A DNA stretch of 64,000 nt. Source: Thalassococcus sp. S3 (lineage in GTDB: Bacteria; Pseudomonadota; Alphaproteobacteria; Rhodobacterales; Rhodobacteraceae). This document shows positions 54,543-64,000 of this stretch, piece by piece. The stretch covers positions 1,736,001-1,800,000 of the forward strand of contig NZ_CP022303.1 of NCBI RefSeq assembly GCF_004216475.1, given 5' to 3'. The notes beneath the pieces are model-generated. The model saw only the letters and a list, made by a program, of their open reading frames with translations. It was not told the DNA's origin and did not search any database. Made by a program: the position numbers and the translations under genes. Position 1 is the stretch's first letter; every line of letters begins with the position of its first letter.

Positions 54543-54908
54543 GTGGAAGAGATGTTGCGGGAGTATCTCCCCATTCTCGTGTTTCTGGCCGTGGCCGTCG
54601 GGCTGGGCCTTGTCCTTCTCCTTGCCGCAGTCGTTCTGGCCGTCCGCAATCCGGACCCGGAGAAAGTGTCCGCTTATGAATGCGGGTTCAACGCGTTCGA
54701 CGATGCGCGGATGAAATTCGACGTTCGGTTCTATCTGGTGTCGATCCTGTTCATCATCTTCGATCTGGAGATCGCGTTCCTGTTCCCCTGGGCAGTGGCT
54801 TTTCAGGACATTTCGATGACGGCTTTCTGGTCGATGATGGTGTTCCTTGGCGTGCTGACCATCGGCTTTGCCTATGAATGGAAAAAGGGAGCACTGGAAT
54901 GGGAGTAG
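54543..54908 (+). CDS. nuoA: NADH-quinone oxidoreductase subunit A
   Basis: A 121-residue membrane subunit of complex I with three helices. It contains [36 protein letters not shown] and ends [12 protein letters not shown]. The GTG at 54543 is used because AAAAGGAG sits eight bases before it; an ATG three codons later is the alternative. It is the first gene of the operon, and its stop overlaps nuoB. Confidence 0.97.
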
Positions 54909-55420
54909 CGACCGCAGGCGTGGACAAGGACGTCGCCACGCAGGAGTTGAACAAGGAATTGCAGGACAAAGGGTTCCTGCTGACCTCGACGGAGGACATC
55001 ATCAACTGGGCGCGCACGGGCTCGCTTCACTGGATGACCTTTGGGCTCGCGTGCTGCGCGGTCGAGATGATGCACACCTCGATGCCGCGCTATGATCTGG
55101 AGCGGTTTGGAACGGCGCCACGTGCCTCGCCACGCCAGTCGGACCTCATGATCGTGGCGGGCACGCTGACCAACAAGATGGCACCCGCGCTGCGCAAGGT
55201 CTATGACCAGATGCCGGAGCCGCGCTATGTGATCTCCATGGGCTCCTGCGCCAATGGCGGCGGGTACTATCACTATTCCTACAGTGTTGTACGGGGCTGC
55301 GACCGGATCGTGCCGGTGGATGTTTACGTGCCGGGCTGCCCGCCGACGGCAGAGGCGCTGCTTTACGGCATCATGCAGTTGCAACGCAAAATCCGCCGTA
55401 CGGGGACTATTGTCCGTTGA
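54899..55420 (+). CDS. nuoB: NADH-quinone oxidoreductase subunit B
   Basis: A 173-residue subunit carrying iron-sulfur cluster N2, which passes electrons to ubiquinone. The ligands are in [40 protein letters not shown] and [21 protein letters not shown] 54899 overlaps the nuoA stop; an extension of seven codons inside nuoA is rejected. Confidence 0.97.
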
Positions 55421-55698
55421 GAGATCCAAATCGAATAGTGATTGGCTCCATTTCTGTTGGAGATATCGTTTCTCTCAGGAGTGGTGGGCCAAACATGACA
55501 GTGTCATCGATTGAGGGCGACGCGATTTTGTGTGACTGGATAGATAGTAAAGGGATGCCAAGACAACGCTCCTATCGGCTGGGAATGCTACAACATGGCT
55601 CGAGCAGACACGTAATGGTGATGCCGCACTGCCCCGAATGCAAAAGACTTCGCCCGGCAAACCTGAGAGTGCCAGAGGCGTCCGAGAGCTCAAATTGA
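55417..55698 (+). CDS. DUF2158 (YodC-type) protein inserted between nuoB and nuoC
   Basis: A protein of up to 93 residues whose first half matches the YodC/DUF2158 pattern: [20 protein letters not shown], then [17 protein letters not shown]. The second half is extra and has CPEC ([15 protein letters not shown]), a possible metal or redox site with only one cysteine pair. The frame opens at TTG 55417, overlapping the nuoB stop; GTG 55438 is an alternative start and neither has a good ribosome site. The stretch is visibly AT-richer than nuoB and nuoC, suggesting a later insertion. No function is known. Confidence 0.7.
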
Positions 55699-55711
55699 GA
55701 GGCCGAAATAT

Positions 55712-56317
55712 ATGTCTAGCGCGCTGAACGAGTTGGGTGCCTATATCGAAGCCAAACGCACCGATTGCGTGCTGGCCTGGGACGTGACGCATGGAGAGCT
55801 GAACATCGACGTGGCCCCATCGAATATCGTGGGGTTCGTCGAGTTTCTGAAGGGCGATCCGACCTGCCGCTTTTCGACGCTGGTCGACATAACGGGCGTG
55901 GACTACCCCGAGAGGCCCAAGCGGTTCGATGTCGTCTATCACCTGCTGTCGATGTACCAGAACCATCGCATCCGGCTCCGCGTGAGTATCCGGGAAGAGG
56001 ATATGGTCCCGTCGATCGTAGAGGCGCATCGCTCGGCCAACTGGTTCGAGCGAGAAGTGTTCGACATGTTCGGGATCCTGTTCACCGGCCACCCGGATTT
56101 GCGGCGCATCCTAACGGACTACGGCTTTCGTGGCTATCCGCTGCGCAAGGATTTCCCGACCACCGGTTATACCGAAGTGCGGTACGACGAGGCTGAAAAG
56201 CGCGTCGTCTACGAACCGGTGAGCCTTGTTCAGGAATATCGGCAGTTCGACTTCATGAGCCCTTGGGAAGGGGCGGAATACATCCTTCCGGGGGATGAAA
56301 AGCAGGAGGCGAAGTGA
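55712..56317 (+). CDS. nuoC: NADH-quinone oxidoreductase subunit C
   Basis: A 201-residue hydrophilic subunit of the peripheral arm. Conserved parts are [55 protein letters not shown] and [20 protein letters not shown] followed by [10 protein letters not shown]. It is a separate nuoC, not fused to nuoD. The stop overlaps the next small gene (TGATG). Confidence 0.97.
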
Positions 56318-56487
56318 TGGGCGGTGTCTTCTGGATCATCTGCGCGTTGACCGCGATCCCGATGCTGAAACTTCTGCCACATTTTGGCGTTAACAAATGG
56401 TGGGCGCTGGCCTGCCTTGTCCCCATCGGGGTGCCGATCCTGGCCTGGGTGATGGCGATGAAGCTGCAGGAACTGGAGAAGCTGTAG
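56317..56487 (+). CDS. Small two-helix membrane protein in nuo operon
   Basis: A 56-residue protein, [20 protein letters not shown] followed by PHFGVNKWWALACLVPIGVP and ILAWVMAMKLQELEKL, with two hydrophobic segments separated by a short loop. Its ATG overlaps the nuoC stop and its TAG is directly followed by the next ATG, so it is tightly embedded in the operon. Function unknown; a complex I accessory or assembly role is only a guess. Confidence 0.7.
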   Translation: MGGVFWIICALTAIPMLKLLPHFGVNKWWALACLVPIGVPILAWVMAMKLQELEKL

Positions 56488-56679
56488 ATGTGGTTTGAGC
56501 TGATCAACACTGCGATTGCGGCTGTTGGCTTGGGATTGGCGTCCATGCCACTTCTTAAAAAGACGGTAAAGGTCGAGTCCTATCAATCGGCAATAATCAC
56601 TGGGTGTTTTCAACACTTTACAAGTGGCCTGCGTAGAAAACTTGACCGAGATTACGCACGAAACGGAGAAACGACATGA
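56488..56679 (+). CDS. Small hypothetical protein between nuoC and nuoD
   Basis: A 63-residue protein with an N-terminal hydrophobic helix ([18 protein letters not shown]) and a basic C-terminal half ([20 protein letters not shown]). It starts immediately after the preceding stop and its last four bases overlap nuoD. Base composition is AT-richer than nuoD. I do not recognise it; coding is supported by the exact fit between neighbours rather than by homology. Confidence 0.5.
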
Positions 56680-62646: not shown

Positions 62647-62650
62647 AGAC

Positions 62651-62986
62651 ATGAAGAGTGTAATCCTGACCCTGACCGGACTGGCCCTGCTGGCGGGCTG
62701 CGGCCCCAGCCGCGATGACCGCATCCGGTTCGACGGGCAATTGTTCCGCATGAATGCCTCGACCGTGGACCGCGACAATCGCAAGCTTTTTGAGGTCACG
62801 GTTCGCCCGGTTTCGGCCTCGCTGGACGGCGCGCGGGAAGCGGGCCGATACGAGGCGATCCGCTATTGCATCGAAAACTACGGTACATCCGACATGATCT
62901 GGTCGGTGGGTCCCGATACCGAAGGAACGGCGCTTGCCGTGACCAATGATACGCTGACATTCCGGGGCGCGTGCAACCCGAAATGA
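62651..62986 (+). CDS. Small lipoprotein in nuo operon
   Basis: A 111-residue protein with a lipoprotein signal, MKSVILTLTGLALLAGCGPS (lipidated Cys at residue 17), followed by a compact domain containing IRFDGQLFRMNASTVDRDNR, GRYEAIRYCIENYGTSDMIW and the C-terminal Cys in GACNPK. The two mature cysteines may form a disulfide in the periplasm. It starts five bases after the DUF3291 pair. A lipoprotein gene inside a complex I operon is unusual. Confidence 0.82.
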   Translation: MKSVILTLTGLALLAGCGPSRDDRIRFDGQLFRMNASTVDRDNRKLFEVTVRPVSASLDGAREAGRYEAIRYCIENYGTSDMIWSVGPDTEGTALAVTNDTLTFRGACNPK

Positions 62987-63087
62987 GCGATATCCGCGCA
63001 TATCCTTCCCGGCGAAGCGTGCTGTTATTGCATAACAGCGCCGCGCCTCTGAGCTATGTCTTTTCAAACGCGAAGAAGGCAGGTCAG

Positions 63088-63498
63088 ATGATGTACAGGA
63101 TTGGATATGGCTTGATTTTGGCGGCGGCAGTGACCACGGCCGGGGCCGCTGCGGCCAAGCCACCGCTGCGGGATGTGGCACGGATCGACGACGGGCTGCT
63201 CTACGTCGCGCTGGCCAATGAAATCCGCAAGGGCTGTGATGCGATCTCGCCGCGCTTTGGCCGGGCGCTCAGCACGCTTAGGGCGATCCAGCAACATGCG
63301 CTCGATCTGGGCTACAGCCAGGCAGAGATCGACGCCTACACCAATTCCGACACCGAAAAGGATCGCATGCGCGCACGCGGCGCACGCTACTACGCGGCCA
63401 ACGGGGTCGATCCCACGAAACCGGACGATCTGTGCGCGCTGGGACGCGCCGAGATCGCCAGAAACAGCGCGATCGGCGTGCTATTGAGGGCAAAATAG
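63088..63498 (+). CDS. DUF5333-type exported protein
   Basis: A 136-residue protein with a signal peptide (MMYRIGYGLILAAAVTTAGA, cleavage near AAA) and a mature domain IDDGLLYVALANEIRKGCDA, GYSQAEIDAYTNSDTEKDRM and PDDLCALGRAEIARNSAIG with two cysteines that could pair. It matches, in my recollection, DUF5333, found beside nuoG in Rhodobacteraceae. ATG 63088 or 63091 is used because of AGGT just upstream; a frame extending 39 codons further is not supported. Confidence 0.8.
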   Translation: MMYRIGYGLILAAAVTTAGAAAAKPPLRDVARIDDGLLYVALANEIRKGCDAISPRFGRALSTLRAIQQHALDLGYSQAEIDAYTNSDTEKDRMRARGARYYAANGVDPTKPDDLCALGRAEIARNSAIGVLLRAK

Positions 63499-63501
63499 AC
63501 C

Positions 63502-64000
63502 ATGTCTGACCTTCGCAAGATCATCATCGACGACACAGAGGTCGAAGTAGAGGGGGCGATGACCCTCATTCAGGCCTGCGAGGAGGCGGGGATCGAGATC
63601 CCGCGCTTCTGTTATCACGAAAGACTGTCGATCGCCGGTAATTGCCGGATGTGTCTGGTGGAGGTCGTGGGCGGCCCGCCGAAACCTGCCGCGTCCTGCG
63701 CGATGCAGGTCCGCGATCTGCGGCCCGGCCCGGAAGGGCAGCCGCCGGTGGTCAAAACCAACAGCCCCATGGTCAAGAAGGCACGTGAAGGTGTGATGGA
63801 GTTCCTGCTCATCAACCACCCGCTCGATTGTCCGATCTGCGACCAGGGCGGGGAATGCGACCTGCAGGATCAGGCGATGGCCTACGGCGTGGATTTCTCC
63901 CGCTACCGAGAGCCGAAACGCGCGGTGGACGATCTGGATCTGGGCCCGCTCGTCGAGACGCATATGACGCGCTGTATTTCGTGCACGCGCTGCGTGCGGT
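63502..64000 (+). CDS. nuoG: NADH-quinone oxidoreductase subunit G, N-terminal part (cut by window end)
   Basis: The first 166 residues of the large iron-sulfur subunit. The N1b 2Fe-2S ligands are in [20 protein letters not shown] and the later Cys in AASCAMQV; the N5 His/Cys motif is in [20 protein letters not shown], and the N4 ligands begin in [10 protein letters not shown]. The gene runs off the right edge. It begins three bases after the DUF5333 gene, continuing the operon. Confidence 0.97.

Follow-up and report, generated by a model that had tools for sequence, protein, structure and literature searches.

We examined the complex I (nuo) operon of Thalassococcus sp. S3 (genome G000 of our set), which is displayed at 54543–64000 of a 64,000-nucleotide stretch of DNA (the window; NZ_CP022303.1, positions 1,736,001 to 1,800,000) and runs past the window end, the remainder being read in another segment of the same genome (L002; Table 1). 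Its genes follow the usual alphaproteobacterial order, all on the + strand, and between nuoA and nuoG they are interleaved with ten non-nuo open reading frames (ORFs), X1–X10, none with an internal stop and most overlapping or abutting their neighbours. A sequence-only reading of this DNA had reported these ten ORFs; all were found and, with four more before nuoJ beyond the window, that observation was correct and, if anything, too short. Extra ORFs are interleaved with nuo genes also in the nuo/nqo clusters of Rhodobacter capsulatus and Paracoccus, a likeness drawn from the interleaving. We focus here on X4, encoded between nuoE and nuoF, which by homology belongs with a subunit of the photosynthetic reaction centre–light-harvesting complex, and whose distribution across the family does not track photosynthesis.

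X4 and the RC-LH1 subunit protein-O

X4 is composed of an N-terminal hairpin of two transmembrane (TM) segments with Cys10 and Cys60, a flexible linker and a C-terminal HhH domain. The sequence-only reading had described a membrane-anchored HhH protein here, and this stands except for its start, which is probably ATG 59134 (239 amino acids), the codon used by most homologues, and not GTG 59125. In the PDB, X4 matched chain O of 8yy9 (phmmer 4.3e-53; residues 10–240 of 242 against 7–232 of 239). X4 also matched, along almost all of its sequence, chain a of 9wqv (3.5e-38), and its hairpin matched chain A of 9lts, ‘protein LRC’ (1.5e-6). A reaction-centre M chain is found in all three entries, which are therefore reaction-centre structures; chain a of 9wqv was deposited under the name of a complex I subunit, yet no other chain of that entry matched NuoE.

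According to the available part of the structure report, protein-O of Dinoroseobacter shibae is a subunit of the reaction centre–light-harvesting 1 (RC-LH1) complex, with a hairpin traced between RC and LH1, a Cys10–Cys59 disulfide and a gene located between nuoE and nuoF (PMC12079452). X4 resembles this protein (8yy9, 8yz2, 9jpb) in its 239-amino acid length, two-TM hairpin, HhH C-terminus (matching 8yy9_O residues 160–224 at 6e-25), nuoE–nuoF slot and phototrophic host, and its Cys10 and Cys60, counted from ATG 59134, align with the cysteine pair of 8yy9_O. The near full-length match, together with the host's own pufL, pufM and puhA, all on a second contig of 95.6 kb (C2), leads us to assign X4, by homology, as the orthologue of protein-O, and thus a predicted RC-LH1 subunit, in a phototroph. 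The contig with pufLM and puhA is perhaps a plasmid; the protein-O gene is on the main 4.8-Mb contig.

A second hairpin of this plan is protein-U (protein-Y) of the Rhodobacter sphaeroides LH1-RC complex, described in the available text of its report as a small, 53-amino acid, two-TM hairpin between RC and LH1, whose loop contacts RC-L Trp265 and Trp266 and whose neighbour genes are not photosynthetic (PMC8564508); the D. shibae protein-O hairpin superposes on it with a root-mean-square deviation below 1.8 Å (PMC12079452, in part). Compared with this 53-amino acid protein, X4 (239 amino acids) has a hairpin similar in plan and, by analogy with D. shibae, in predicted place, but without detectable homology, and protein-U was rejected as an X4 homologue, since a 47-row hairpin profile run against the PDB at E ≤ 10 retrieved 25 sequences with no protein-U chain among them. 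X4-type hairpins without an HhH tail do occur, for example at loci L023, L050, L063, L132 and L139. In one PufX-bearing phototroph (G045), X4 is absent from the short nuoE–nuoF gap, and a relocated hairpin-only relative of 69–79 amino acids (E 7e-8; L228:3269-3508, contig C1), without HhH, adjoins neither nuo nor puf genes. Stand-alone hairpins such as this one are protein-U-like in plan.

Distribution of X4 relative to photosynthesis

We sampled 159 genomes of the family, each of a different genus, of which 153 have NuoF. Apart from Thalassococcus sp. S3, 149 places were listed and 140 nuo loci compared (nine omitted), giving 141 loci with its own. Profile searches were run slot by slot, and loci whose contig ended before a slot were left out of its denominator, so that the number of evaluable loci varies; since presence was sought in the same slot only, all counts are lower bounds. 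Phototrophs, defined as pufLM-bearing, make up 64 of the 159 genomes, and puhA, as a control, was present in 63 of these 64 and in none of the 95 non-phototrophs.

X4 occupies the nuoE–nuoF slot in 96/134 loci by profile and in 103/134 with seven added on architecture. Among evaluable genomes, 45 of 55 phototrophs and 58 of 79 non-phototrophs carry it (44/55 versus 52/79 by hidden Markov model (HMM) alone; Fisher 0.08). A tree built from core Nuo proteins implies at least 37 changes in phototrophy and 22 in X4 presence, and among 25 independent phototroph/non-phototroph pairs X4 differed, on average, the same way as phototrophy in 4.0, the opposite way in 1.5 and not at all in 19.6 (median p 0.45). 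Moreover, in nine clades of at least three genera composed entirely of non-phototrophs, 32 of the 42 evaluable members retain X4 (7/10, 5/6, 3/5, 4/4, 4/4, 0/4, 3/3, 3/3 and 3/3, with clade supports, in the same order, of 100, 14, 98, 63, 99, 80, 49, 92 and 98 on a midpoint-rooted tree). The ratio of non-synonymous to synonymous substitution rates (dN/dS) for X4 was about 0.16–0.29 in the seven of 11 non-phototroph pairs for which dS was defined, the other four being saturated. Thus, the distribution of X4 does not track photosynthesis. Non-phototrophs are not discussed in the available text on D. shibae protein-O (PMC12079452), whereas here the family is traced in 134 loci and proves mostly independent of photosynthesis, and a literature search covering titles and abstract openings found no paper on protein-O in non-phototrophs.

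In a separate collection of 79 named loci, not a random sample since they were gathered as X4 or NuoE relatives, 55 carry X4 in the nuoE–nuoF gap, from which it is missing in the loci of Ruegeria (except L178), Phaeobacter, Leisingera, Roseibium and Stappia. Across the class, a hairpin profile matched seven of 289 genomes, four in the family and three outside it, the latter more weakly (E 3e-7 to 1e-4). PufX was considered as the reason for X4 absence in phototrophs and rejected, X4 being present in 26/32 PufX-bearing and 19/23 PufX-less genomes (Fisher 1.0; one PufX call lay below the curated cut-off).

The X4 hairpin and its HhH tail

In an alignment of the hairpins of 103 X4 proteins (45 from phototrophs, 58 from non-phototrophs; residues numbered as in the window ORF, so that F45 is F42 counted from ATG 59134), six of 349 residue states were associated with phototrophy (Fisher p<1e-4). 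Twelve states were also tested in independent pairs, and four of them reached a median p below 0.05: F45 (34/45 phototrophs versus 16/58 others, Fisher 1.5e-6; pairs 9.8 same and 0.6 opposite, median p 0.006), P65 (20 phototrophs versus four others; pairs 10.0:1.2, 0.012), L66 (16 versus one; 6.4:0.1, 0.031) and P69 (22 versus six; 8.7:1.2, 0.039). By alignment, not coordinates, F45 and Q42 map to the periplasmic turn and P65–P69 to the cytoplasmic end just past the second cysteine. These two ends are the ones that touch the RC in D. shibae protein-O, where, in the available text, the periplasmic end contacts RC-L Trp266–Met270 and the cytoplasmic end RC-L 40–43 and RC-H 144–146 (PMC12079452).

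No state passed the same threshold in X5 (0/220), X10 (0/352), X11 (0/214) or X14 (0/225), nor among the 1205 states of nuoA, B, C, D, F, I and K taken together; nuoG gave 1/821 and nuoH 4/342. Columns of the HhH domain were likewise examined and dismissed, with none at p<1e-4 in either X4 (0/86) or NuoE (0/75). As to NuoH, T61 occurs in 29/52 phototrophs versus 4/74 others (Fisher 9e-8 in a 96-row subset) and L199 in 39/51 versus 25/74 (Fisher 7e-7 for F199, same subset), paired tests at the two positions reaching a median p of 0.125 only. Residue 61 sits in a GLLQ[ST]xAD stretch, which we take to lie near the quinone channel, and the phototrophy-linked positions of NuoH may reflect complex I running in reverse in phototrophs.

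The C-terminal domain of protein-O was reported to be similar to the C-terminal parts of other proteins, NuoE among them (PMC12079452, available text), and NuoE of Thalassococcus sp. S3 likewise bears a C-terminal HhH, as does NuoE in 107/134 loci. In the 66 loci where both tails were readable, NuoE and X4 HhH domains are 72.1% identical within a genome and 67.6% between genomes, the latter close to the between-genome values for NuoE–NuoE (69.2%) and X4–X4 (67.5%), and the within-genome mean was reached in none of 300 permutations. Since within-genome identity exceeds that between genomes, the two tails evolve in concert, a pattern that from these alignments would be due to gene conversion, common constraint or both. 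Protein identity of the tails rises to 98% in L135 and 95% in L118, and at the DNA level the tails share 97.5% of 319 bases in L135, 91% of 235 in L015, 84% of 241 in L125, 80% of 399 in L118 and 74% of 233 in Thalassococcus sp. S3; the L135 tails likely record a recent gene conversion.

The module is not confined to these two proteins. Queried against its own genome, the HhH domain retrieved three places at E<1e-20, namely X4, NuoE and ribosomal protein L21, and it matches the NCBIfam models of L21, S2 and phasin PhaH, each below the curated cut-off. The L21 gene (L007:1498-2136, − strand), next to that of L27, encodes the same module at its C-terminus. Five loci of Roseibium, Labrenzia and Stappia (L166, L174, L181, L189 and L205), whose NuoE relatives came up with the HhH query, have the NuoE tail and no X4, with nuoE–nuoF spacings of about nine bases. 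A linker motif, RKGxWxY, is present in 31/103 X4 and 9/134 NuoE proteins.

Other insertions, and the place of X4 in the operon

Pfam matches above cut-off back the earlier labels of DUF2158 for X1, DUF5337 for X5, DUF3291 for X7 and X8 and DUF5333 for X10 (Table 1). Junctions between neighbours are mostly tight: −4 bases at nuoB/X1, nuoC/X2, X3/nuoD and X7/X8, 0 at X2/X3, +11 at X4/X5, +5 at X5/nuoF, −1 at nuoF/X6, −14 at X6/X7, +4 at X8/X9, +101 at X9/X10 and +3 at X10/nuoG. A consensus scan of 54200–64000 found no promoter-like site (2.4 in shuffles) and 14 terminator-like sites (8.2 in shuffles), of which the eight on the + strand all fall within reading frames.

Table 1. Genes and inserted ORFs of the Thalassococcus sp. 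S3 complex I operon (window positions; L002 positions beyond the window). GC3, G+C content at third codon positions; aa, amino acids.
Feature	Position	Strand	Remarks
nuoA	54543..54908	+	detected in 123/141 loci
nuoB	54878..55420	+	31-base overlap with nuoA; detected in 129/141 loci
X1, DUF2158 protein, 93 aa, lineage-specific	55417..55698	+	Pfam 4e-10; GC3 0.51
nuoC	55712..56317	+	
X2, hydrophobic protein, 57 aa	56314..56487	+	weak DUF2484 likeness, Pfam 0.046, below cut-off
X3, 63-aa ORF, doubtful gene	56488..56679	+	no Pfam match; GC3 0.47
nuoD	56676..57890	+	
nuoE, 377 aa: thioredoxin-like [2Fe-2S] subunit, linker and C-terminal HhH	57973..59106	+	Pfam 5e-51 (core)
X4, predicted protein-O orthologue, 239 aa	59134..59853	+	frame open from GTG 59125; probable start ATG 59134
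X5, DUF5337, hydrophobic membrane protein, 74 aa	59865..60089	+	Pfam 6e-36
nuoF	60095..61393	+	in 153/159 genomes
X6, membrane protein, 97 aa, lineage-specific	61393..61686	+	GC3 0.63
X7, DUF3291 protein, copy 1	61673..62155	+	Pfam 2e-40
X8, DUF3291 protein, copy 2	62152..62646	+	Pfam 6e-50
X9, small lipoprotein (LLAGC)	62651..62986	+	C17, C73, C108 invariant in 34 sequences
X10, DUF5333, signal-like N-terminus	63088..63498	+	Pfam 2e-37; C50, C116 invariant in 32 sequences
nuoG, first part	63502..64000	+	continues past window
X11, small lipoprotein after nuoG	L002:13517-13903		
nuoH	L002:13910-14947		
TM2-domain protein after nuoH	L002:14954-15226		Pfam
72-aa protein after nuoI	L002:15729-15947		
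X14, carboxymuconolactone-decarboxylase-like (CMD) protein, between nuoI and nuoJ	L002:15944-16354		Pfam

Besides X4, same-slot counts are high for DUF5337 (125/134 loci) and DUF5333 (103/131) and, beyond the window, for X11 (95/127) and CMD (97/123); intermediate for lipoprotein X9 (60/131), DUF3291 (53/131; a single copy in 49 and two in four) and X2 (32/129); and very low for DUF2158 protein X1 (4/129), X6 (2/131), X3 (1/129), the TM2 protein (1/123) and the 72-amino acid protein (1/123). Thus, five of the fourteen insertions are present in roughly three quarters or more of the loci, three kinds have a patchy distribution and the others are local: the cluster combines a family-wide set (DUF5337, X4, DUF5333, X11 and CMD) with patchily distributed genes and a small number of local arrivals. 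Conservation among relatives, which the sequence-only reading had proposed as a check on the extra genes, therefore applies to several of them, whose retention in the same slot makes them real, long-lived operon members, is weakly borne out for X2, and fails for X3, X6 and X1. These last are also the three with the lowest GC3 of the ten (0.47, 0.63 and 0.51, respectively, with nuo genes at 0.72–0.85), and X3 may not be a gene, given its low GC3 and the lack of a same-slot relative in the 128 other evaluable loci. The tandem DUF3291 pair (61673–62646) is a doubling seen in just 4/53 DUF3291-bearing loci. A literature search, with most subscription journals outside its coverage, found no paper on DUF5337 or DUF5333, nor any function for these or for lipoproteins X9 and X11.

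The conserved slots of X4, DUF5337 and DUF5333 within the operon, and the HhH module common to X4 and NuoE, would suit a view, along the lines of the sequence-only reading, in which X4 and the other conserved products are supernumerary subunits of complex I or help to assemble it, the presence of protein-O in RC-LH1 being a side activity. Alphaproteobacterial complex I is known to carry extra proteins: the available text on the Paracoccus denitrificans structure names, besides 14 core subunits, three of mitochondrial type (homologues of NDUFS4, NDUFS6 and NDUFA12) and an isoaspartyl methyltransferase (CI-PIMT), none of which is by name any of the ten products (PMC11522691). This absence is weak evidence against subunit status because the gene content of the P. 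denitrificans operon was not reached: P. denitrificans NuoE matched 152 of 394 family genomes, the best at 81% identity, and did not lead to the operon (a stricter search, 0/394, was uninformative). The text of a mass-spectrometry paper likewise names none of the products, its supplementary protein table lying outside what was covered (PMC8115037). In the PDB searches X4 gave no match to a chain from any complex I entry, the complexes that it did retrieve being RC-LH1, and NuoE of 8qby, an entry named in the available text of the structure paper (PMC11522691), has 239 amino acids and was matched without an HhH tail. We hold this view to be unlikely.

Somewhat less probable again is that X4 serves RC-LH1 only and that non-phototrophs bearing it lost photosynthesis too recently to have lost the gene. 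The structures do put X4 homologues in RC-LH1, X4 is somewhat more frequent in phototrophs (45/55 versus 58/79) and hairpin residues are tied to phototrophy; however, an open X4 frame persists in 32/42 members of the all-non-phototroph clades, with dN/dS well below 1 in the seven measurable pairs, puhA is absent from all 95 non-phototrophs of the same sample, and the cysteine pair (C13 and C63) is no rarer in non-phototrophs (both present in 39/58 versus 23/45 phototrophs, not significant after pairing). The occurrence of one module on L21, NuoE and X4, with below-cut-off matches to L21, S2 and PhaH models, would also fit a general HhH docking system in which X4 is the membrane anchor, keeping nucleic acid or ribosomes engaged in translation close to the membrane while large bioenergetic complexes are assembled. 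Related HhH folds do bind nucleic acid, but such binding is putative here and hairpins devoid of HhH exist, and we rate this the least probable of the three.

We favour instead, at a probability of roughly 0.7, an ordinary complex I operon with layered passengers, among them X4 as an old membrane protein of the operon later recruited by RC-LH1. Its role would then not require photosynthesis, and recruitment would have run from the complex I operon to RC-LH1 and not the reverse. In phototrophs, by analogy with D. shibae, the hairpin would wedge between RC and the surrounding LH1 and may aid LH1-RC assembly or quinone exchange, and the cytoplasmic HhH, on a flexible linker of ~100 residues, may bind the same partner as the NuoE tail, by which complex I and a photocomplex that reduces quinone would share a docking partner.

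Several observations weigh against this account. In ten of the 55 phototrophs the slot contains no X4, so that RC-LH1 does not depend on it everywhere; architecture and not the HMM underlies seven of the 103 X4 calls; several of the nine non-phototroph clades are poorly supported (14, 49 and 63), with a root placed at the midpoint, and one has X4 in none of four members; and dS exceeds 1.5 in six of the seven measured non-phototroph pairs. As to the hairpin, eight of the twelve pair-tested states stayed above 0.05: G9 (13 phototrophs versus no others; pairs 4.7:0.0, p 0.063), Q42 (14 versus one; 4.5:0.2, 0.125), G39 (1.9:8.7, 0.065), W38 (5.5:1.7, 0.29), V34 (8.7:4.5, 0.39), C63 (1.7:4.2, 0.45), C13 (2.8:4.4, 0.73) and G36 (5.6:3.9, 0.75). 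The columns were chosen after scans of 277 or 349 states, making the pair tests exploratory, and the four linked states of NuoH mean that the link with phototrophy is not unique to X4. Concerted evolution of the tails could be no more than the outcome of recombination between neighbouring, similar sequences, and any role of X4 in non-phototrophs, or with complex I anywhere, is putative.

Complex I in purple phototrophs has been proposed, in the accessible text of one paper, to produce NADH by quinol oxidation whenever the pool is over-reduced (PMC4859585), and this proposal gives a functional reason for a link between photosystem and complex I. One conceivable, and in our judgement improbable, form of such a link is X4 as a shared adaptor, with its hairpin in the RC/LH1 gap and its HhH and that of NuoE binding each other or a common partner, which would keep light-driven quinol production close to NADH-making complex I; in non-phototrophs the hairpin would dock on a respiratory quinone enzyme. 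A direct tether by X4 is, at this point, speculation.

In this family the gene is part of the complex I operon whether or not the host is photosynthetic, and X4 appears to have been borrowed by photosynthesis and its hairpin ends tuned. The available text on D. shibae protein-O left open its function and whether it was original or recruited (PMC12079452), and the latter question is in large part answered by the distribution found here. The survey also sorts the ORFs worth biochemical work (DUF5337, DUF5333, X4, X11 and CMD) from local insertions. If X4 has a respiratory role, the protein could physically link a photosystem and complex I.

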